Below, piece after piece: positions 9,424-64,000 of a DNA stretch of 64,000 nt (positions within the stretch are counted from its first letter, which is position 1; each line of letters begins with the position of its first letter). The notes beneath the pieces were generated by a model. That model made no database searches, was not told the DNA's origin, and saw only the letters and a program-made list of their open reading frames with translations. Both the position numbers and the translations under genes were made by a program. Location: assembly GCF_000365425.1 (NCBI RefSeq), contig NZ_AQOV01000001.1, positions 496,001-560,000 of the forward strand. Reading direction: 5' to 3'. The stretch is from Methylomonas sp. MK1. Lineage in GTDB: Bacteria; Pseudomonadota; Gammaproteobacteria; Methylococcales; Methylomonadaceae.

Positions 9424-11625
9424 TTACTGGATTCGCTGCGACGTTAAGAATGGTGCCGGTCGGCTTTTATTTTTGATGGCGGCTTGAATCAAACCTTGCA
9501 CATCCAAAATCAGCGCGACATTGCCATCGCCCAGCACGGTTGCGCCGGTGATACCGTTTAATCTTTCGAACACTTTGCCAAGCGGCTTGATCACGGTTTG
9601 ATGCTCGCCATGCAATTCATCGACAACAAACCCGGCCTTGGTTTGCCCGAATTTGACCACCACCACGCTTTCGCGCTTTCTATTAATGTCGGCGATTTGG
9701 TTATGGAAATAGTCGCCCAAACGTAAATATGGCAAGACCTGGCCGCGTAAATTAATGTAATGCTGTAATTCATCAATCTCGCATTCGTTGGCATTCATCT
9801 CGATGCATTCGTCCACCATACTCAACGGGATGATGTAGCGGTCCTGACCGGTACCGACCATAAAACCGTCGATAATCGCCAAGGTCAGCGGTAAGCGTAT
9901 GGAAATGGTGGTGCCCTCGCCTTCTACGCTGTCTATCTCGACGGAGCCGCGTAAGGCTTCGATATTTTTTTTCACCACATCCATGCCGACACCGCGCCCG
10001 GATAAATTGGTGGCTTGATCCTTGGTGCTAAGTCCGGCGGCGAATATCAGATTGTGAATGTCTTGTTGGGACAAATCGTGATCGGGTTTAATCAAACCGT
10101 TGGCTAGTGCTTTGGCGAGTATTCGCTCGCTGTTCAAACCAGCGCCGTCATCGGCGATTTGAATCACGATATGCCCGGATTCGTGGTAGGCATTGAGTTG
10201 CACGGTACCTTGTGCCGGCTTACCAACGGCGAGCCGCTGCTCGGGACTTTCAATGCCGTGATCGAGGGCGTTGCGGATCAAATGCGTTAATGGATCGTTG
10301 ATTTTTTCGACGACCGTTTTATCCAACTCGGTTTCGCCGCCGCTGATAAAAAGTTCGATGTCTTTATTCAATTCTTTACTAACGTCGCGCACCACCCGTT
10401 TAAACCGGGAAAAGGTTTCGCCAATTTGCACCATGCGCAATTCCAATGCGGTATCGCGAATACTGCCGACTAAGGCATTCATGCTGGCGGCCACATCGCC
10501 GGCATCGCTGAGGCCATGCCGCTCAACGATCAAATTCATCGCGGCACTGGAAATCACCAGTTCACCGACCAAATTGATCAAATGGCCTAGTTTGGTGGCA
10601 TCGACCCTAATGTAATTGGCTTCGCTTGCCAGTTTTTGTTTGGTCTGCTCCTGTTTTTTCAGCGCTTGATCGACCAATGGCTGCTGTACGACGTGTTGCT
10701 CAACCAGTATTTCGCCCAACGGTTTGCCGGGAGCTTCCTGTTCCGCATCAACACTCGCCTGCTGGCGTTGCAAGGCATGATTGACATCATTCTGAGTCAG
10801 GGCGCCGACCTGCACCAGCATATCGCCCAAACGCTTAACATGATTGTCATCCTGAGCATTCAACAGATTTAGATATTCCTCTAGTTTGGAATTGGGCGGC
10901 AAAATTTTGATATCGCAATCGTCCGCGGCAAAGTCAAACACCGCCTCTATCGTCTGTTTATTCGCATCGCTCTGAAAAGCAATTTTGAAATGCAAATAGC
11001 AGCTTTCCGGATCCATGTCGTCACCGACCGGCATCTCCGAGGCTACGGTAAGAATTTGTTTAATCTCTCCCAAGGTGCACAGATAGCGAATAAACGACAA
11101 GGGATCCATGCCGTTTCTGAAAGCATCTTTCTGAAACTCTAAAGAAATGAGCCAGTTGTCGTCCACCGATATTTCGCCGCCGCCTTCAATTTCCAGCTGG
11201 ACAATATCGTCGCTCTGCTGCATGTCGGTCGTTTGCCGTCCGGTCAACTGCCGAATCAAACGTTCTCCGTCCGCCGCCAAACTCGCCGGTAATGCAGCGT
11301 CTTTCTGCGTCAAACAATGTTCGATCAATTTAGCCGTGTGATCCTTACTGTCCAGTAAGACAGAAATCAATTCCGCGTCGATGCTGTGTTCACCATTACG
11401 CACCTTATCTAGAACCGACTCGGCTTCGTGGGTAAAGCCCACAATGGCATTGAAGCCAAACAATCCGGAAGAGCCTTTGATGGTGTGCATGGCCCTGAAC
11501 AAACTATTGATGGTTTCGCTATCGTCCGGTTTGCTCTCCAGAGACAACAAAGCGTCTTCCATATCCGTCAACAACTCTTCAGCCTCTTGGGCGAAAACCG
11601 TTAAGGCAGCATCAAATTCGCTCAT
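9424..11625 (-). CDS. cheA: Chemotaxis histidine kinase CheA, with MshEN-like repeats
   Basis: Receptor-controlled histidine kinase, 733 residues from the ATG at 11625 (MSEFDAALTVF). This start overlaps the STAS stop as ATGA, giving translational coupling. Order of domains: Hpt with phospho-His47 (HTIKGSSG); a non-canonical middle region in place of a recognisable CheY-binding P2; two repeats near 266-325 beginning RLGDMLVQVG and PLGEILVEQ, each continuing to an A-L-x-x-Q end, which resemble MshEN cyclic-di-GMP motifs; dimerisation helices; the ATPase domain with IRNALDHGIE, ADDGAGL and GRGVGMDVV; and a C-terminal CheW-like domain. The kinase core is complete. The cyclic-di-GMP reading is an inference. 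Confidence 0.95.
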   Translation of the reverse strand: MSEFDAALTVFAQEAEELLTDMEDALLSLESKPDDSETINSLFRAMHTIKGSSGLFGFNAIVGFTHEAESVLDKVRNGEHSIDAELISVLLDSKDHTAKLIEHCLTQKDAALPASLAADGERLIRQLTGRQTTDMQQSDDIVQLEIEGGGEISVDDNWLISLEFQKDAFRNGMDPLSFIRYLCTLGEIKQILTVASEMPVGDDMDPESCYLHFKIAFQSDANKQTIEAVFDFAADDCDIKILPPNSKLEEYLNLLNAQDDNHVKRLGDMLVQVGALTQNDVNHALQRQQASVDAEQEAPGKPLGEILVEQHVVQQPLVDQALKKQEQTKQKLASEANYIRVDATKLGHLINLVGELVISSAAMNLIVERHGLSDAGDVAASMNALVGSIRDTALELRMVQIGETFSRFKRVVRDVSKELNKDIELFISGGETELDKTVVEKINDPLTHLIRNALDHGIESPEQRLAVGKPAQGTVQLNAYHESGHIVIQIADDGAGLNSERILAKALANGLIKPDHDLSQQDIHNLIFAAGLSTKDQATNLSGRGVGMDVVKKNIEALRGSVEIDSVEGEGTTISIRLPLTLAIIDGFMVGTGQDRYIIPLSMVDECIEMNANECEIDELQHYINLRGQVLPYLRLGDYFHNQIADINRKRESVVVVKFGQTKAGFVVDELHGEHQTVIKPLGKVFERLNGITGATVLGDGNVALILDVQGLIQAAIKNKSRPAPFLTSQRIQ

Positions 11626-13583: not shown

Positions 13584-13750
13584 GGGAATTCCGTTTGGGT
13601 TTTGGGTATGTTAAGGATAGTAGAGAGTTTTAAACTTGCATTCAACCCACTACCATCTTAGGTTTTTCGTTAATGTTAAGTTCTCAGCAATTCATGTAAT
13701 TAATTACTGACATAATTGCTTCGTAAATCCTTACTAACGGAGAAGATTTT

Positions 13751-54367: not shown

Positions 54368-55154
54368 TGTCAGCGGGAAATTTTTACTAAATAACCCCGC
54401 TTGCGGCTTTGTTTTTTTAACTCAAGGAGTTAGCGGCGGCATTTAATTTTAATTTCGCTTTAGATAGCCCAGCCATAAGATTACTGTTCTGAAAACAGCA
54501 AATCGATTTTTTACGATAGCCAGCTATTGCATAGTATTTTTGGCATGCTGGCACATGCCCGAGATGAGCCAGCATGAATGCGTGAGCCTTGACTCAGCCG
54601 GTATTTTTTAGAGAGCTAGACAATTTCGCCTAAATATCCAGAAGCGCCCATTACCCAGGCAAACATCTGGGCGAACCCATTTTTAAGGGTTTCGACATTG
54701 TCGAGTGGGCTTGTGATGACCACAGAAGTCCATAGACAACTATGCGCCGGGAAAATAGCTTACTACCCGATCATACAAGCCGGTGACATCGACAAATTGG
54801 AGGTTTTGGCTTGGGGAATGGCGGACAAGCAACACCGTCGGACAAGTTTCAATCTACCCGCCCCACGATTTGACAGAGCTACCCATTGATCCATTCACAA
54901 CCAGGATTCACGACATCAATTCCGGTGACTCGCATAAACCATCGATTCAAGAGGGCGGAAACGTGCTAGATCTCAACCTCGGCAGTGCCGGTCTAAATTA
55001 CCGATAGCCGTTGCCAAGCGTGGCATCAAGGATACGGCAGTCGAGCTGGGGGTTTGAAACCGTTTACCAGAATCTGCTATCTTTCTCGCCCCGATATCCT
55101 ATCGCCGCAAAACTGGCGCTCTTTACCGATAGTTTTAACATCCAAAATTGATCC
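54368..55154. other. Intergenic region between nrdJ operon and nat
   Basis: About 790 bases. A short hairpin CCGC-tt-GCGG near 54397-54406 followed by GCTTTGTTTTTTT looks like a weak plus-strand terminator. Overlapping open frames from 54698 to 55007 share a stretch that could be an eroded gene, but no family was recognised and no ribosome-binding site fits. Confidence 0.45.
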
Positions 55155-56830: not shown

Positions 56831-56875
56831 TGGTGGGTGCTGAGGGGTTCGAACCCCCGACCCTCGCCTTGTAAG
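56831..56875 (-). tRNA. 3' fragment of tRNA-Val (TAC): probable attachment site
   Basis: On the minus strand these 45 bases run from the anticodon loop (CTTACAA, anticodon TAC) through GGGGGTTCGAACCCCTC to AGCACCCACCA. They include the T arm, the 3' acceptor strand and CCA. The 5' half of a tRNA-Val, which would start GGGTGCT, is absent: upstream bases do not pair with the anticodon stem. This is therefore not a functional tRNA but the duplicated 3' end left when an element integrates into a tRNA gene. Phage genes lie on its 5' side, and chromosomal genes on the other. Confidence 0.8.
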
Positions 56876-57057
56876 CGCCAACCAATAACAGGCGAACACA
56901 TCGGGACACGCTGAAACGTCCTATGGATCAAAAGGATAACAGAAATTGCCCGAAGGTCAAGCGTGTTTCGATGCGTTTGGTTTGTGTCTGAATGTGCCCT
57001 AATATGTGCCCTGCCTTGCGCCCTCGGGCAAAAAAACCGATGGTCTATAGTGCCAAA

Positions 57058-57090
57058 AAAAGCCGCCTGCATTACTGCCAGGCGGCTTTT
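57058..57090 (-). terminator. Intrinsic terminator of the phage-like operon
   Basis: AAAAGCCGCCTG at 57058-57069 pairs perfectly with CAGGCGGCTTTT at 57079-57090 (9-base loop). On the minus strand it is followed by a run of seven T. It lies 21 bases after the tape-measure stop. Confidence 0.85.
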
Positions 57091-57110
57091 GATCCGGCTA
57101 ACCGATCAAG

Positions 57111-58760
57111 TTACGGCATGCCTAGATACATAGCATGGGTAAACCCATAGCCCACATCCACATTCGACCGAACCGGCCCATGAGTTTTACTCGGAGCCAC
57201 TCGCATCGTTGCGGGTGAATTGTCGAACCGGACATTGACATCAACCCCGCCTTTCACCGACCCAACAATATTTTTTTGGTAGCCCGGTGCCCGCATGCCT
57301 TCGCCGCTGGGTAATTGAACCCCCGAGAAATCAGGCAACAACGAGGCAACCGATTTACCCAAGAACATGGGCACGCTGCCAACCAGTTTTAACAGCGGAT
57401 CGTTCGAAACCCAGTTACCGATATATTTGAACATATCGATTAGCGGCTGGAAAAAATCCTTGATCTTGCCGAATCCCTCCTTAAGCCGGTTGACGATACT
57501 ATCCCAATTATCGATTATCAACGGCGCCGCGACGATGGCCGCTTGTGCCAGCAACATCAACGGGTTTAACTTCATGGCCGCCGTTATTGCGCCGATACCG
57601 CCCGCCAAACCCCAGGCCGCAACTTTCAAGCCGACAAAGGCGCCGGCCATCTTCGCTGCTGTCATCACCGCCGGCCCGTTTTGATCAATAAAGCCGGTGA
57701 GATTTTCCGATATACGGTTGACGGAATCGGCGGCCGCCTTGAGTTCCGGCGCATACTGGCTGCCGAATTTCGCCATGAAATTTGACCAGGTACCGCCGGC
57801 TGTCTCCACCTTGTTAGTGAGCGTGCCGGCGGAGTTGGCTATTTTGTCCATCAGACTGCCTTGGTTGGCCATCGCCTGCACTTGCCGGTTATAGCTTTCC
57901 AGGGTGATCAGCGCGGCTTTGCTGGCGTGCTCCTTGCCGAACAGGTTTTCCAATTTCGCAAAGCGTAGCTTGCTCGGTAGGTGGTTTATTTTATCCAGGT
58001 CGGCAATCAGCTTTGGAATGCCGGAGAATTTATTCAGCTTGGTGGCCTGGTTGATAATCTCACGAATGCCGGTACCGGCCTCTTCACCTGAAATACCCGT
58101 GCTGGTAAAGACCGAGACCAACGGCAGCATTTGGTTTGCCGCCTTTAGGCCTTCTTCACCAGCGACTTTCAACGGGCCAGAGACACGGGACATGGCATAT
58201 TGCAATTCATCCAGCTTGGTGCCGTTGAACAACACCCTTTGAATAGAATCGGCAAACGGCACCATATCACTGTCGGCAATGTTAAACGCCCGGCTGAGCT
58301 TACCCATTGATTCCGCCGCACTGTCATAAGTCACATTGATGTCTTTGCCAACGACGCCAAGGTATGAAGTGGCCCTCAATACGCCATTGGCGATAGAGTC
58401 AGCATTCACGCCAAAGGCTTTTAGTGTTGACGACATCGCGTAAAAGTCGGCTGTTGTTCCGGGTAACTGAGTTCCCAGCTTTATCGCTTCCTCGCTGATT
58501 TTCTGGAATACCGCCGGGATACTCCCGTTCTTATCCATCAAGGTGTTTTGCAGGTAGGCTGCGGAATTCTCTAAATCCATAAACGCTTTGGCCGGTACCG
58601 CCATCGACGCGGCAAAACCCGCGCCAAACATCGGCGCACCATCGCCGACAACTCTTAACTGTCTTTTGAATACATTAAGGTTTTTGGTGATGTTTTTCAG
58701 CGCTGGTGACATCTGATCTACCATTCTGATAACTGCTTTTAAATCGAAATCTTTTGACAT
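57111..58760 (-). CDS. Phage tail tape measure protein (TP901 family)
   Basis: Sets tail length in long-tailed phages. 549 residues. The N-terminal half contains the TP901-type region (YAMSSTLKAFGVNADSIANG, LGVVGKDINVTYDSAAESMG). Hydrophobic segments near 375-420 (VGLKVAAWGLAGGIGAITAA, MLLAQAAIVAAPLII) are normal for the family. The C-terminal 80 residues are Gly/Pro-rich. Last gene of the minus-strand phage set. No tail tube, tail-assembly chaperone or baseplate gene is next to it. Confidence 0.85.
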   Translation of the reverse strand: MSKDFDLKAVIRMVDQMSPALKNITKNLNVFKRQLRVVGDGAPMFGAGFAASMAVPAKAFMDLENSAAYLQNTLMDKNGSIPAVFQKISEEAIKLGTQLPGTTADFYAMSSTLKAFGVNADSIANGVLRATSYLGVVGKDINVTYDSAAESMGKLSRAFNIADSDMVPFADSIQRVLFNGTKLDELQYAMSRVSGPLKVAGEEGLKAANQMLPLVSVFTSTGISGEEAGTGIREIINQATKLNKFSGIPKLIADLDKINHLPSKLRFAKLENLFGKEHASKAALITLESYNRQVQAMANQGSLMDKIANSAGTLTNKVETAGGTWSNFMAKFGSQYAPELKAAADSVNRISENLTGFIDQNGPAVMTAAKMAGAFVGLKVAAWGLAGGIGAITAAMKLNPLMLLAQAAIVAAPLIIDNWDSIVNRLKEGFGKIKDFFQPLIDMFKYIGNWVSNDPLLKLVGSVPMFLGKSVASLLPDFSGVQLPSGEGMRAPGYQKNIVGSVKGGVDVNVRFDNSPATMRVAPSKTHGPVRSNVDVGYGFTHAMYLGMP

Positions 58761-58777
58761 GATAATTCTCCTGTCAG

Positions 58778-59095
58778 CTACTGGACTGAATACAAGCGGC
58801 CGTTCCGTTCGTGTTGGGTTTTAAACCAAGGTGGCGCGTCGCTCGTTGCCGACCGGCAGAACGCTTTGCCTTGATCTTTAAATAACTCGACCGCCCAAAG
58901 TTTTATCTCGGGATGAGCGGCTTCAAGTTTCTGCTTAATTTCGGCTAATTCTTTTAGCTTTCGCACCGTTACGCTTTTCACAACATCCTTTTCAAATGTT
59001 GTGTCCAGATAGATGCCTTGGCCTTCCTGCCTAAGCTCGCAGCGCGTCAAAAAATGCCCTTCGGCAGTGGTAATGGAAAATCCCATTTTTTTCAT
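58778..59095 (-). CDS. Phage-element hypothetical protein, 105 residues
   Basis: Begins MKKMGFSITTAEGHFLTRCE and contains a Lys/Glu-rich helix (TVRKLKELAEIKQKLEAAHP) and a Trp-containing C-terminal region. Seventeen bases upstream of the tape-measure gene, in the position where tail-assembly proteins are often found, but no similarity was recognised. Confidence 0.65.
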   Translation of the reverse strand: MKKMGFSITTAEGHFLTRCELRQEGQGIYLDTTFEKDVVKSVTVRKLKELAEIKQKLEAAHPEIKLWAVELFKDQGKAFCRSATSDAPPWFKTQHERNGRLYSVQ

Positions 59096-59116
59096 AACAT
59101 AATCCTCGGTTAACGC

Positions 59117-59308
59117 TTAACCATTGGCTAAGCGTGGCTGACATGCCCGCCCTTGCGCGTGATTTAATGTCTTTAGCATTTGTCTGCTCAGCCAATAGTC
59201 GCCATAGGTAAAGAATCCGGCTCGCTGCCAGGGTGGCCTGTCAATAACGCCAAAGTGAATTAGCTCGCTTTTGATATGATCGCCAGCGAGTTTGTTGGAC
59301 TGGCGCAT
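59117..59308 (-). CDS. Phage-element hypothetical protein, 63 residues
   Basis: Begins MRQSNKLAGDHIKSELIHFG; rich in Trp, Tyr and Arg (RPPWQRAGFFTYGDYWLSRQ). Its ATG directly abuts the stop of the upstream coiled-coil gene, which supports the frame. Function unknown; a small connector or regulatory protein is possible. Confidence 0.55.
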   Translation of the reverse strand: MRQSNKLAGDHIKSELIHFGVIDRPPWQRAGFFTYGDYWLSRQMLKTLNHAQGRACQPRLANG

Positions 59309-59806
59309 TTAGCTAAAAATCGCTTGGATGCGGCCGTCAATATCGGCAATACATGAAAGCAATCGTTTGTCATCGACAACCAGGGGCAAGGCGCGCAATT
59401 CTTCATATATGCCGTTGAGCAGGCCCGTTTTATTGGGCGTTAACGGACCGGCAGACTGTACGCGTTCATGCAGATTATTGACGGCCTGTTGGATGATCAG
59501 GGGCTTCAACTGCTGTAGCTTTTGTTCCTCGGCCTGAATAGCGGACAACACTTTGCGCCGTCTGCCTTCGATCTCCGTGGCCAGCTCGCTATATTTGCGC
59601 TGGGCTTGCGCTAGCTTAAGCGTCGAGTCGGCAACCTCTTTCTCGGCTTGTGCAAGCTGATCGGTTGGCAAATCACGCAACGCTTTGGATAAACTCTGGA
59701 TTTTTTCAGCACAAGCCTGTCTTTCGTCCGAGCGTTCTTGCAAATCGTTCTGAAACAGCTCATCGATAATTCGCGATTTTTTCAGGATACTTTCTAAGAA
59801 TTTCAT
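59309..59806 (-). CDS. Phage-element coiled-coil protein, 165 residues
   Basis: Residues 20-110 form a long heptad-type coiled coil (LQERSDERQACAEKIQSLSK, LAQAQRKYSELATEIEGRRR), followed by a globular C-terminus (NLHERVQSAGPLTPN). Placed directly after the capsid gene, where head-tail connectors or decoration proteins occur. No family recognised. Confidence 0.65.
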   Translation of the reverse strand: MKFLESILKKSRIIDELFQNDLQERSDERQACAEKIQSLSKALRDLPTDQLAQAEKEVADSTLKLAQAQRKYSELATEIEGRRRKVLSAIQAEEQKLQQLKPLIIQQAVNNLHERVQSAGPLTPNKTGLLNGIYEELRALPLVVDDKRLLSCIADIDGRIQAIFS

Positions 59807-59868
59807 ACTAGCTCTCCATCCATTAATGGCCGGGCTATGACCTAAGCCATAACCCGGTTGCGAGTTGA

Positions 59869-61206
59869 TTACGCTGGTGTTAAATCACCGCCGCGAATTG
59901 CCCCTGTTTGCTCGATAGCAAGCGCCAGCCGGCGCTCGGCTTTCACTGTAAGCAAGCCCTTGGTGAAGTTGTCGCCATCGCTATCTGACACTTCAATCCC
60001 TACATCCTGCCGATCAAAGATCGACGCAGCGGCTAAGGCATCAAGAACCGCGAAGGTATCGATTGTCACGGAGCTTGTCTCGACGACCGGCACACCGAAC
60101 AACATCTGCTGGAAGCCATTGGCAATATCACTTGAGCTGACAGCCGCCGGCGTGGAGGACAACAGATCTAAATCAAACGCTAACCAGTCCGCCGGATTAA
60201 GCAATATGGCGCTCGGCGTATAGCCCGCTGAGCGCAAATCTGCAATCACCTTGCGGATTAAGCGATGCTTTGGCAACGGTGTGCCGACCTGTGCGGCGGT
60301 GTAGCCGTGCGCGCTGAAATTCCCGGTTTGCAGCAACCCACTCATATTCGGCGCCGTACCGTTACCGTTCACAATTTGTGCATCAACACGGCGTTGAACG
60401 CCGTACATCAGGCGGGCGTTGATGTACGCGGCCATGAGGGCGTTATCCGCCGCCAGTTGTTTGCTGACCTTCATAAAATGCGTTACGGTCGATACGGGTT
60501 GTTGAACCAGGGTGACAGTTAAGCTAGATTCACTCGCCGATCCCCCTTCAGCGGTCTCTGCGGCGGCATTGGTGAACACGTTCTCACGGCTGTATTCAAT
60601 CAACGGCGAATCTGTCGGAAAATGCTGGAATAAATCCTCAACGCGCAGCGGCGCAAAGGCCCCCGGCACCATGCCGGGGCGACGGTCGACGCCGCCAATA
60701 TTACCGCTCCCGGTTAACGTGTTATTCTGAATATCGAATTTCGCACGCGCTCGGCCCCCGCGCATCATCTCGTTAAAGGTAGCGTTGTTAACGATTTGAC
60801 CACCCCAACCTTTAGAAAGCCCGCTAAAACTGCCGCCATCGGCACCGGCTACGCGTTTTTGCTCTAACATTAACAGCCTGTCAGCAAACTCGCGCTGGCT
60901 CAACTGGACATCATGTAGTGCATTTTTAGTTTCGGTAGAGACCCGACCAGATTCCTGAAGCTCTCTCTGGGCTTTCATTTGGAAGTCGGCGAGTGATTTT
61001 TCCACGCCGTCCAGCATTTTCATAACCGCGTCGGAGTTGCCGACCGTGCCCGCCATCAGCAGGCCAGTGAATAACTGACTGTGATCGAGCGCGGCCAGTC
61101 CGGACAGTCCAGCGGCGACCTCATGAGGTGCGGCGCCAACATTGAAAGCCAGGACCAGCAGTCCAAAGGAAGCCATGCAAAGGCCGATAAATTTAAAAGT
61201 CTTCAT
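59869..61206 (-). CDS. HK97-type phage major capsid protein with signal-peptide-like N-terminus
   Basis: 445 residues. From about 110 the sequence is HK97-like: a delta/scaffold helix (KSLADFQMKAQRELQESG), then RPGMVPGAFAPLRVEDLFQH, SRENVFTNAAAETAEGG, SASESSLTVTLVQQPVSTVT and a C-terminal IEQTGAIRGGDLTPA. Unusually, the protein opens with MKTFKFIGLCMASFGLLVLA followed by FNVGAAPHE, a convincing secretion-type signal or membrane anchor, in frame with no intervening stop. A later start at Met-Lys-Met near residue 62 would remove it. Follows the prohead protease with a 26-base gap. Confidence 0.85.
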   Translation of the reverse strand: MKTFKFIGLCMASFGLLVLAFNVGAAPHEVAAGLSGLAALDHSQLFTGLLMAGTVGNSDAVMKMLDGVEKSLADFQMKAQRELQESGRVSTETKNALHDVQLSQREFADRLLMLEQKRVAGADGGSFSGLSKGWGGQIVNNATFNEMMRGGRARAKFDIQNNTLTGSGNIGGVDRRPGMVPGAFAPLRVEDLFQHFPTDSPLIEYSRENVFTNAAAETAEGGSASESSLTVTLVQQPVSTVTHFMKVSKQLAADNALMAAYINARLMYGVQRRVDAQIVNGNGTAPNMSGLLQTGNFSAHGYTAAQVGTPLPKHRLIRKVIADLRSAGYTPSAILLNPADWLAFDLDLLSSTPAAVSSSDIANGFQQMLFGVPVVETSSVTIDTFAVLDALAAASIFDRQDVGIEVSDSDGDNFTKGLLTVKAERRLALAIEQTGAIRGGDLTPA

Positions 61207-61232
61207 AAATATAATTCCTGTAAAAAATGTGT

Positions 61233-62018
61233 TTAGTTGAGGATCGATTTGGGTATTTTTAAATTTTCCAATCGTTCCATAATTTCGTCGTCGGCGTTGT
61301 CGACTGCGGGCCGATTGACCACGTTTTTCAATCTGCTCACAAAGGCGGTTGCTTCACGCTTAGTGAAATGCAAGTCTCGAAGCAATCGCTCAAAGTCTCG
61401 CTCGTTCTCCAATTCATCGAAGTCCGGCTCACTCATGGGCGACATCTTGAAGCGGTGGTCAAAGGACCGGGCTTTGGCTGCCAAGCCAACACGACCTATA
61501 ACCTCATCGCAGAAGCCTAACGTCTTAGCTTCTGTTGCTGATAACCAGCTCTCTTTGGCCATCATGTCAAGAACGGTCTGGCGGTCCAGGCCGGTGCGCC
61601 GCACATAGATGTCGGCGGCGCTGCTTTGGAGCTTATCCATCAGGTCCGCCATGTCGCGCAGCTCTGCCGCATCGCCATAAGCCCCGCCTTGGGCGTTGTG
61701 GATCATCAGGAAAGCATCTTCCGGCATGGTGATCCGGTCAGCGGCCATCAAGATAATTGAGGCCGCGCTGGCCGCCAGACCATCGACATGGCCCAATATT
61801 TTGGCCGGATGATTTTTCAGCGCGTTATAAATCGCCAAGCCATCCAACAGGCTGCCGCCAGGGGAATGAATGTTAAGTTCTAGCGTGGTAACGTTACCCA
61901 GCGCCCGTAATTCGGCAATGAGTTCTGCCGCCGTAATGCCACCACGCCCAATCTCGTTAAAGATGCTGATTTTGGCGCTTGTGGCCATTTGGTTTTTGAT
62001 TTGATACCAATTTTTCAT
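61233..62018 (-). CDS. ClpP-type prohead protease
   Basis: Cleaves capsid precursors during head maturation. 261 residues from the ATG at 62018 (MKNWYQIKNQMATSAKISIF). ClpP-fold motifs: NIHSPGGSLLDGLAIYNAL, DGLAASAASIILMAADRITM with the nucleophile Ser, and LMIHNAQGGAYGD with the His. C-terminal 60 residues are acidic and helical (EPDFDELENERDFERLLRDL), a frequent scaffold-type addition. Just upstream of the capsid gene, the normal order. The frame is open further upstream to GTG 62204, giving an optional N-terminal extension (next entry). Confidence 0.88.
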   Translation of the reverse strand: MKNWYQIKNQMATSAKISIFNEIGRGGITAAELIAELRALGNVTTLELNIHSPGGSLLDGLAIYNALKNHPAKILGHVDGLAASAASIILMAADRITMPEDAFLMIHNAQGGAYGDAAELRDMADLMDKLQSSAADIYVRRTGLDRQTVLDMMAKESWLSATEAKTLGFCDEVIGRVGLAAKARSFDHRFKMSPMSEPDFDELENERDFERLLRDLHFTKREATAFVSRLKNVVNRPAVDNADDEIMERLENLKIPKSILN

Positions 62019-62204
62019 ATAGTTATCCGAACGGAAGACGACAAAAAGCCGTCGGGTTAAAAATCCGTGTGATGTAGTACGAGTGACTGGTCTGGAATGC
62101 AGCGTCGCGCCGCAGGTGGGGCAAGTCTGACGCGGTCGGCGTCTCGCCGATTCGCTAAGCCCTGCCAGCATCGCGCCGACAGAGTTATCACGTTTATAGC
62201 ACAC
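62019..62204 (-). other. In-frame upstream extension with partial Ogr/Delta-like zinc motif
   Basis: The open frame in front of the protease holds RQTCPTCGATLHSRPVTRTT and, further on, RRLFVVFRSDNYMKNW. Ogr/Delta activators have CPxC, about 22 residues, then C-x4-C; here the second pair is F-x4-Y (TTC and TAT, each one base from a Cys codon). It may be a decayed late-gene activator, now read in frame with the protease, or chance resemblance. Confidence 0.35.
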
Positions 62205-62221
62205 GGTTAAAAATTTTCAAG

Positions 62222-62395
62222 TTATTTTATTAGGCCAATGGCCCGCTTCAAATCGCGCACAAAAACAACTGATTGAGACCGGCTATAGCCCAGCCGGCGT
62301 AGGTTTTGTTCTATCTGCCGAATCGTCACACCGTCGATTCGGATAGGCTCAGACTCGAGCCCTAATACTGTTCTCAAACGATTTAGTAATTTCAT
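62222..62395 (-). CDS. Small phage-element protein, 57 residues
   Basis: Frame from the ATG at 62395: MKLLNRLRTVLGLESEPIRI, then DGVTIRQIEQNLRRLGYSRS and a basic helical end RDLKRAIGLIK. The Arg/Gln-rich helices would suit a small DNA-binding or connector protein. An AGGA sits upstream. No family recognised. Confidence 0.55.
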   Translation of the reverse strand: MKLLNRLRTVLGLESEPIRIDGVTIRQIEQNLRRLGYSRSQSVVFVRDLKRAIGLIK

Positions 62396-62583
62396 ATTTC
62401 TCGATTTCCTGTATTCATAACCCCTCTCAAATGGGCTTTTTGGATTTGCAAAACTTACTCCAGCAAAAATTTAGCTAGGGCGACGCAAAGGAAGCTGAAC
62501 GGCCTAGAGTTTTGACCCACCCTCCCCATTGCTATACCCCCTCCCAAAACTCGCGGCCCTGCAAAAAACTAATTGCTATCGGT

Positions 62584-62769
62584 CTAGGCTGGGGTTGCTT
62601 TTGACTTTTCACCCGCCCCCCCTGGACAGCTGCCCAAGATAACGGGACGGATCACCCGTAATTTTTCAACAAGTGGACGGCTGCAAGCCGCGGCGCGTGT
62701 GGCTTTGCTGGCAATCCGTCCCCTTGTCACCTGATTTTTTCGATAGTGCTTTCTTTCGTGTATTTGCAT
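62584..62769 (-). CDS. Possible small basic protein, 61 residues
   Basis: ATG at 62769 with AGGA six bases upstream. The product begins MQIHERKHYRKNQVTRGRIA and is strongly basic. It lies between the primase-helicase and the structural genes. Nothing homologous was recognised and the composition is ambiguous, so this is a weak call. Other bases between 62396 and 62924 show no gene. Confidence 0.3.
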   Translation of the reverse strand: MQIHERKHYRKNQVTRGRIASKATRAAACSRPLVEKLRVIRPVILGSCPGGAGEKSKATPA

Positions 62770-62924
62770 AAGTGTCCTGTTGTCGCTGTTACTCTCTATA
62801 TCTCTTACATGTGTGAAAAATAAGGGGACAAGGGGACACATAGCCCCGCATCCCACGGATAGCAAGGCCTGAGCACGCCCCGTTATCCGTCCCATTGACG
62901 GTAATAAACAGGGCCACATGGTGA

Positions 62925-64000
62925 CTAATCGCGCCGTGCGTCATACTCACCCAGCCACTTGATAGCCGACTGCTGCCGCCACCCCTCAATATCCCGCACC
63001 GCAAATAAGGCAACCTTCTCGCGTTTGCCGGTCGAGCGCTTACACATCATCGGCAAACACCCCAGCTCAGCCATCACCACCCCAATAGACTTGGCGCTGT
63101 ACTTATCACGCATGGCCTTTGCCACATCGATAGACCGCACACAATCAACGTTGAACGGGTAATCGCCGGCCGCTATCATGTCCTCGATCTGATGTTTGAG
63201 CGGTGACTTACTGGTGCCAATCAGCTCCGATTTGAACCGAGTCAAAGGCGCTGGTTGTTTGGGATTAAAGTCGCTTAGGTCACGATCCAGCAGCCAGCGG
63301 ACCACCAAGCCATTGCCGCCGCCATCGAGCCACCGCGCCAGGTCGTTGTAATATTCCTTAGGTCTGGGTACCGCATCGGTCCATACCGCAAAATAGCGGC
63401 CGTCGCCCTCGGATATGTGCAAGGCATCTTTATAGTTGGACATAAAGATGGCCTGAACAATATTCGGTGTTTCGTAAAACCCCCGCCCGAACAAGCGCAC
63501 CCGCAGCATATCCGGTGGCGCGGCTAGCATTGGTTTCAGTTTGTTTTCCAGGTTCAAACCCTCGAATGTTTGAATCTCCTGGAAAATAACCAATTTGGAA
63601 TGATGCAGATAATCGGTGAAGGATTCCTTCAACTCGCCCGCCGGCGGCTCACAGACATTGGCAGAACCCAGACCGTAGCGCAGCGGATTAAGCAGCATGT
63701 CCTTGCCGACTCGCGAGGTTCCCGCAATCAACAAAGCATGATTGATTTTGCACTGTGGCCGCTGCAAGGTGCTGGCCATCCAGTTCAAGATATGGGCTTG
63801 CTCAATTGGATTGGGATACAGGTAATTCAGATGCTCCAGCCACTGTTCCACATCCTCACGTGTCGCTTCATCAGGCAAACGGACGCCGGGATCGCGCCAA
63901 ATATTCCAAAGCACCGCACCGTCACGATGAACCGGGTTATCGGTTTCGCCAGGCAGATAAATCAGACCATCAACTTTGATAGTGGCCGGATTTTTTAGAA
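62925..64000 (-). CDS. Phage primase-helicase (DUF5906-like), 5' part outside the window
   Basis: At least 358 codons, open to the window edge on the 5' side: the frame runs through GLIYLPGETDNPVHRDGAVL before the first internal start. The ATPase loop is LIAGTSRVGKDMLLNPLRYG (Walker A ending GKD), followed by KLVIFQEIQTFEG (Walker B-like) and AIFMSNYKDALHISEGDGRY (sensor region). The C-terminal 90 residues look like a winged-helix domain. It would initiate replication of the element, as in P4-like satellites and many prophages. The primase half lies outside. Confidence 0.8.
   Translation of the reverse strand, partial: LKNPATIKVDGLIYLPGETDNPVHRDGAVLWNIWRDPGVRLPDEATREDVEQWLEHLNYLYPNPIEQAHILNWMASTLQRPQCKINHALLIAGTSRVGKDMLLNPLRYGLGSANVCEPPAGELKESFTDYLHHSKLVIFQEIQTFEGLNLENKLKPMLAAPPDMLRVRLFGRGFYETPNIVQAIFMSNYKDALHISEGDGRYFAVWTDAVPRPKEYYNDLARWLDGGGNGLVVRWLLDRDLSDFNPKQPAPLTRFKSELIGTSKSPLKHQIEDMIAAGDYPFNVDCVRSIDVAKAMRDKYSAKSIGVVMAELGCLPMMCKRSTGKREKVALFAVRDIEGWRQQSAIKWLGEYDARRD

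Follow-up and report, generated by a model that had tools for sequence, protein, structure and literature searches.

From position 56879 onwards, a 64,000-nucleotide stretch of the genome of Methylomonas sp. MK1 (the window; bases 496001-560000 of contig C1, NZ_AQOV01000001.1, in a genome of 5,233,591 bases and five contigs) enters an element of about 13.6 kb that carries a major capsid protein, a head maturation protease and a tape measure protein (TMP) next to its own replication and integration genes. We consider this element likely to be an integrative cos-type phage satellite that borrows packaging functions and tail parts from a helper phage, because both of its ends were found, it has neither a terminase nor a portal gene and only one tail gene, related reduced elements occur in other genomes, the ratio of nonsynonymous to synonymous substitution rates (dN/dS) is low for most of its genes, and it has a cos-like block without terminase genes. 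The same evidence supports a first-pass annotation of the window, which had proposed a satellite that makes capsid parts and borrows packaging or tails. If this is right, the element would add a capsid lineage from methanotrophs that comes with a head protease and has persisted on several satellite backbones without a portal or a terminase. The packaging site that it shares with phages would name a candidate helper type, and the presence of two copies with different cos-like cores, together with a tail slot that holds two types of gene, would make helper switching testable.

Ends and gene content

Below, G-numbers denote genomes (151 were searched, G000 being the element's own) and L-numbers denote loci; copy 2 is a second copy of the element in G000. 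Coordinates past 64000 are window-equivalent, the count being continued beyond the window (base 1 of L001 is window position 55000). The element runs from 56879 to window-equivalent 70455, with 13,576 bp between the junction marks and a G+C content of 51.0% (window, 51.9%). Its attachment (att) boundary, first placed at 57058, lies instead near 56879, at the 3' half of a tRNA-Val gene (56831-56874). The annotation had suggested extending the sequence to the other att, and doing so reached, outside the window, a tRNA-Met gene with a tyrosine integrase nearby. The features are as follows.

56831..56879, minus strand: 3' half of tRNA-Val, the right end (attR of the insertion into tRNA-Val), from a 44-base match at 56831-56874 and junction comparison
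57111..58760, minus strand: TMP, 549 amino acids, SfV/Mu contractile-tail type (PF10145, E 2e-17; PHROG 28)
58778..59095, minus strand: g105, paired with the TMP gene, at the place of the tail assembly chaperone of phages
59117..59308, minus strand: g63, a small gene with no function assigned
59309..59806, minus strand: g165, a helical protein adjoining the capsid gene in 7 of 7 elements (model mean pLDDT 75.5, pTM 0.43)
59869..61206, minus strand: HK97-type major capsid protein, 445 amino acids (PF05065, E 2e-29; PHROG 10)
61233..62204, minus strand: ClpP-type head maturation protease (PF00574; PHROG 133)
62222..62395, minus strand: g57, a small gene with a relative in G035 (60%) only and none in G011, G018, G026 or copy 2
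62401..62530, minus strand: cos-like block, common to the HNH-TerS junction of phages (sequence comparison)
62507-62518: core motif of the block, GGGTCAAAACTC
62584..62919, minus strand: g111, a small open reading frame (ORF) with relatives in copy 2, G018 and G026
62603..62614, minus strand: second match of the core motif, GGGTGAAAAGTC, inside the g111 frame
62925..64000, continuing to window-equivalent 65228, minus strand: primase-helicase, 767 amino acids (Prim-Pol, PriCT_2 and DUF5906)
window-equivalent 68292-69362: tyrosine integrase
window-equivalent 70408-70484: tRNA-Met, 6.4 kb past the window

The order given by the annotation, with TMP, three small genes, capsid, protease, small ORFs (62222-62919) and primase-helicase, agrees with the ORF, Pfam and PHROGs results, and a replication gene does stand upstream of the protease, the primase-helicase from 62925. 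Past the end of that gene (65228) come g96, g316, a helix-turn-helix (HTH) gene, an HI1420-type antidote, a Gp49-like toxin, g141, the tyrosine integrase, g180, g137 and tRNA-Met, with no structural gene among them. Searches of the whole element with Pfam and PHROGs (the integrase with Pfam only) found no terminase, portal, connector, sheath, tube, baseplate or lysis gene. The annotation was thus right in seeing no tail tube, sheath, baseplate or lysis gene, and the TMP gene is the sole tail gene detected between the two ends. It had also called for a search for terminase, portal and integrase genes, of which the integrase was found and the other two were not found within the element. Two features expected of phage-inducible chromosomal islands (PICIs) are present, an att site with an integrase and, in the primase-helicase, a replication gene of the element's own.

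The true start of the protease is probably near 62024, because the family match starts near residue 61. The g105 protein has no Pfam or PHROG family and a low-confidence predicted fold; BLASTP detected no similarity between it and one phage chaperone, and fold searches with g105 and g165 gave no match at E < 0.001. The helical g165 protein is a possible scaffold. The primase, used as a query in viral contigs, gave no match.

Related elements and the origins of the virion genes

The annotation had proposed looking for the same gene order in other genomes, and the set does recur. A capsid protein search gave matches in 7 of the 151 genomes, six of which carry reduced elements (seven copies, two of them in G000): besides the element's own genome, these are four Methylomonas genomes (G011, G018, G026 and G035) and one genome of the same family (G089). 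Capsid and tail cassettes are both present in copy 2, G018 and G026. The G018 element is colinear with the window's except for g57 and a diverged g316, and that of G026 (Methylomonas sp. LW13, NZ_CP033381.1; locus L066) is colinear too. G011 has the capsid cassette without g105 and TMP, and a toxin-antidote pair lies in that region; its tail slot (L018:859-1431) holds a 190-amino-acid tail assembly protein of lambda type (PHROG 32, E 8.5e-27), whose gene resembles the tail region of the G031 phage at the DNA level (71-76%). In G035 the integrase (at tRNA-Leu) and the replication genes are different ones, followed by g57, ClpP, capsid and g165, with no tail gene seen by Pfam, and G089 has a further gene set with a capsid gene and a relative of g165 (24%), without a protease. 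The g105-TMP pair, which G018 and G026 share, occurs without a capsid gene in G024 (at tRNA-Leu) and G049 (at tRNA-Met, integrase 65%), and also on a short contig of G010. The seventh capsid match, G031, is a prophage with HNH, TerS, TerL, an S78-type protease, a portal and a tail tube (Pfam), its other tail genes having been named by inspection.

None of the seven related elements yielded a portal or terminase gene, which makes the annotation's second suggestion, an unusual reduced phage, unlikely. Pfam was applied to the window's element, G035 and G089, while the verdict on G011, G018, G026 and copy 2 comes from colinearity and a genome-wide Phage_portal search, which found none. Pfam scans of 52 proteins of G035, G089, G024 and G049 gave no portal or head-tail connector among the matches listed; for G035 and G089, 25 of 32 families are listed, the others being single matches weaker than E 1.9e-4. 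The G035 and G089 set includes one HNH_3 protein and one AlpA-family protein (Pfam), and an AlpA-type activator, as in E. coli PICIs, had no Pfam match in the window's element.

Relatives of the capsid protein came from 16 loci on genome contigs and from IMG/VR (80 kept of 294). We examined 95 loci (L066-L080 and L162-L241; L081, a 3.2 kb fragment, was left out) and did not count the 29 with less than 3.5 kb upstream. Of the 66 capsid loci whose upstream sequence reached 3.5 kb or more, 65 had TerL and portal genes related to those of G031, and the single locus without them was L066, the LW13 copy of this element. In a capsid tree (quick search; 104 rows, in which L069 and G031 are the same phage), the seven satellite proteins lie on one side of a branch with an SH-aLRT of 99, and 95 phage rows on the other. 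One capsid clade thus extends over several backbones, and we conclude that its lineage has persisted with neither portal nor terminase in three or more integration/replication backbones. The capsid proteins of the phages G031 (contig C325), L180 and L213 match the element's at 45-49%. ClpP replaces the S78 protease in phage loci L180, L185, L206, L208, L223 and L234, and the ClpP of phages L180/L276 matches the element's protease at 54-62%. Tail markers that matched in the phage loci of the capsid relatives were of lambda type, and contractile markers (from one or two contigs) matched none. Residues 1-25 of the element's capsid protein are strongly hydrophobic and signal-peptide-like, a feature present in the phage proteins of G031, L199 and L201 and not in those of L180 or L079.

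TMP residues 4-538 align with the tape measures of SfV, SfI and SfII at about 29%, and relatives at 39-48% lie on contigs with sheath and tube genes. In a quick TMP tree (81 rows, 54 of them unlabelled), a branch with an SH-aLRT of 90 separates six satellite TMPs from 21 phage TMPs. SfV-type phages have TMPs longer than the element's; the idea that the TMP was shortened for short tails was not supported, since in the nearest group three phages with a complete frame (L082, L083 and L087) have TMPs of 509-568 amino acids.

We estimated dN/dS from close copies by the Nei-Gojobori method, comparisons with G035, G024 and G049 being saturated except for the protease. Values were 0.11-0.20 for the capsid gene, 0.09-0.17 for TMP, 0.16-0.19 for g105, 0.05-0.24 for g165, 0.05-0.12 for the primase and 0.05-0.07 for the integrase; most genes of the element are under purifying selection. 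The annotation had held simple decay to be less likely, and recurrence, the capsid tree and the low dN/dS bear this out, although some relatives look damaged.

The cos-like block and the two copies

The cos-like block lies just upstream of the capsid cassette, between g111 and g57, and in the window's copy and G011 it comprises a G-rich tract, GGGTCAAAACTC, CTTCCTTTGCGTCGCCCTAG and AAAAAGCCCA. Close forms occur twice in G035, and also in the phages of G031, L275, L276 and L213. Compared with G031, the block gave a BLAST score of 25, versus at most 11 in 200 dinucleotide shuffles. The core motif has two matches in the 64 kb, where 0.03 are expected and none of 100 shuffles reached two. Across 94 capsid loci of phages, a looser form gave 11 matches, where five mononucleotide shuffles gave 1-2. 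Ten of the 11, including the one in the G031 phage itself, were no more than 0.9 kb from TerL on its upstream side. The exact 19-mer TTCCTTTGCGTCGCCCTAG was found in two IMG/VR contigs, both times at the HNH-TerS junction, and in these contigs TerS is 70-75% and TerL 72% identical to G031. Place and conservation suggest that the block is a cos site. The G031 phage, L180/L276, L275 and L213, which carry HNH, TerS, TerL and portal, are not satellites but candidates for the helper type. No cos-like motif was found in G089, G024, G049 or G010. In G035, a repeated motif (L023:13477-13545 and 13610-13698) is 79-91% identical to 11376-11463 upstream of the HNH-TerS-TerL genes of the G031 phage, and is perhaps a copied late control region.

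A different core stands at the same place in copy 2 (L015:1155-1370), G018 and G026. The cos-like cores of the two copies in this one genome therefore differ, as if each were adapted to a different helper terminase. The window's copy and copy 2 are identical over the last 2.4 kb, about 97% identical over the last 5.2 kb and 85-95% further left, identity falling to 60% around g57 and the protease start. Given this pattern, the TMP end of the window's copy may derive from copy 2.

The window's copy has a tRNA-Met left end and a tRNA-Val right end. Copy 2, with one part at the end of C2 and the other at the start of C1, shows the reciprocal arrangement. One left end is a hybrid tRNA at L054:9047-9122 (G000 C2), with the 5' half of tRNA-Val fused to the 3' half of tRNA-Met; its reciprocal right end is the window's tRNA-Val 3' half (56831-56879). 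The homologous site is an intact tRNA-Val in G011, G025, G006 and G018, and the other match of the 44-base tRNA-Val stretch is an intact tRNA-Val at C1:1993166. From the hybrid junctions and the intact homologous sites we conclude that an element with a tRNA-Met att entered a tRNA-Val gene at the anticodon region, as a secondary site. The swapped ends (C1, about 6.5-553 kb) may reflect an inversion of ~546 kb between copies in inverted orientation; a false join made during assembly, within the 2.4 kb where the copies are identical, would give the same pattern. In G018, a 48-bp direct repeat of the tRNA-Met 3' end is found 13,273 bp apart. Second tRNA-Met 3' halves lie 2.6-11.1 kb from the gene in G007, G008, G016 and G025, where other elements probably use the same site.

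The first core is found in G011 (with the lambda-type tail gene), G035 and the window's copy, and the second in copy 2, G018 and G026, which hints at exchange of both the cos type and the tail cassette, the latter being a contractile TMP or a lambda-type gene. It is conceivable, though we give it well under even chances, that helpers are switched by paired cassettes, the packaging site and the tail gene being exchanged together to suit the helper. The first core with a lambda-type tail gene, as in G011, would then serve lambda-tailed helpers like the G031 phage, the second core with a contractile-type TMP (copy 2, G018 and G026) would serve Mu/SfV-tailed helpers, and the window's copy, with the first core and a contractile TMP, would be a hybrid formed by exchange with copy 2. 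The pairing of core and tail is based on five elements, four of them close kin.

Proposed mechanism, alternatives and known systems

We propose that entry of a helper phage would cause the element to excise and replicate, and that the helper's HNH, TerS and TerL would recognise the cos-like block. Satellite DNA would be packaged through the helper portal into procapsids made wholly or partly of satellite capsid protein, which the satellite protease would process, and g165 would serve as a scaffold or set the head size. A chimeric tail would contain the TMP, perhaps chaperoned by g105, in place of the helper's, and the helper would supply the remaining tail parts and lysis. The satellite capsid protein might build the whole capsid or only alter the helper's. 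By analogy, the capsid-and-cos part would follow the logic of SaPIbov5 and the TMP part that of PLE.

Several observations weigh against the satellite reading. No match to Terminase_6N, TerL_ATPase or Phage_portal, the families searched, marked a helper in the element's own genome. Phage relatives of the capsid have lambda-type, not contractile, tails where markers match, and the second cos-like core has no exact match in IMG/VR. G089 lacks both the cos-like motif and the protease, and copy 2 has no match to g96, the toxin or the antidote. The G011 primase is split over two overlapping frames, and a Tn3-type transposon is inserted between g165 and g105 in LW13. The protease has a higher dN/dS than the other genes (0.15-0.46), which the doubtful first 60 codons may have raised. 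The antidote protein matches PF20901 (Sf6 small terminase) at E 0.008, below the cut-off, which we took to reflect its HTH.

Statements on published systems, here and below, follow passages of the papers cited. A mainly interfering role of the virion genes, in which capsid and tail proteins on their own would poison the assembly of invading phages while transfer is secondary or takes another route, seems unlikely to us. The SaPIbov5 capsid homologue is described as the main means of helper suppression (PMC8569155), and G024 and G049 carry the tail cassette without a capsid gene. However, the dedicated protease and phage-type cos-like block point to packaging, tmp deletions in PLE are reported to lower transduction strongly (PMC12987554), and interference and transfer may go together. 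We think it improbable, too, that the element is a decaying prophage remnant from which terminase, portal and tail genes have been deleted. Its capsid and ClpP relatives do sit in phages with the order HNH-TerS-TerL-portal-protease-capsid, and the split primase of G011 and the LW13 transposon would fit decay, but the same capsid clade and reduced content recur in at least three integration/replication backbones, dN/dS is low for most genes, the element has integrated into a second tRNA, the cos-like block is kept without terminase, and the TMP comes from another phage type.

A divergent capsid-forming PICI (cf-PICI) would share with the element its own capsid protein, head maturation protease, replication gene and similar size, and some cf-PICIs carry putative tmp genes (PMC12987554). 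The class is described as carrying a portal, connectors, both terminase subunits and HNH (PMC10690885); none of these was found, so the element falls outside the class definition and this identity is very improbable. An ordinary prophage with its other genes beyond 64000, suggested by the window's having cut the element, is refuted by the extended sequence: the 6.4 kb from the window's end to tRNA-Met contain no structural genes, and the search gave neither the full structural set past 64000 that the annotation named as fatal to its satellite (terminase, portal, tail) nor any lysis gene from one att site to the other.

The satellite reading has parallels in several known systems. SaPIbov5 of Staphylococcus aureus combines a helper cos site with a capsid homologue, Ccm, that occupies the pentamer places of small capsids (PMC8569155, PMC5052747), and SaPIbov5-type particles take their portal from the phage. 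The element resembles this type in its HK97-type capsid homologue without portal or terminase and its size (about 14 kb), and its cos-like block may be the counterpart of the helper-type cos site; it differs in adding a head protease, g165 and a tail cassette, and in host and backbone. Among E. coli satellites of the RepA_N type, 224 putative members are described as having capsid and tape measure genes without terminase or prohead serine protease (PMC10448857), and they share tRNA sites and a tyrosine recombinase with the element; as described, they are set apart by RepA_N replication and decoration and baseplate genes, whereas the element has a ClpP-type protease and Prim-Pol. PLE satellites of Vibrio cholerae have TMP and chaperone genes, incorporate the TMP in chimeric tails and transduce poorly without it (PMC12987554). 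The element likewise encodes a TMP, and its small gene g105 occupies the position of the chaperone gene as a candidate chaperone without detected similarity, but PLEs take the phage capsid protein (PMC10945586) and the element has a capsid gene.

The Gram-negative PICIs EcCICFT073 and PmCI172 are also small islands with an integrase, a primase and a capsid homologue (PMC6092414), and differ in that the window's element has a protease and a TMP and no detected AlpA. The cf-PICIs and the Streptomyces satellites MulchRoom and MiniFlayer encode capsid proteins as well, but with terminase and portal (PMC10690885), and a protein related to tail assembly protein I is known from AH14b, a satellite of Pseudomonas (PMC4936722). 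A tape measure in a satellite is not a novelty, being already in print (PMC12987554, PMC10448857), with putative tmp genes in other satellites besides PLE (PMC12987554) and satellite TMPs occurring together with lone capsid genes (PMC10448857). With these precedents in SaPIbov5, PLE, E. coli and AH14b, every part of the element has been seen before. The abstract of PMC6956133 and passages of PMC12324425, which came up when open-licence full texts were searched for Methylomonas and methanotroph satellites, do not describe the element. The novelty lies in the combination and in the hints of exchange of cos type and tail cassette, and the family differs from the others by its ClpP-type protease, backbones, cos-like block and host.

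Separately, Phage_sheath_1 matches occurred in all nine genomes examined, and in five of them, G000 (C1:2615548-2616021), G011, G018, G024 and G026, the frame is 736-745 amino acids long; these sheath-family frames perhaps belong to a contractile injection system.

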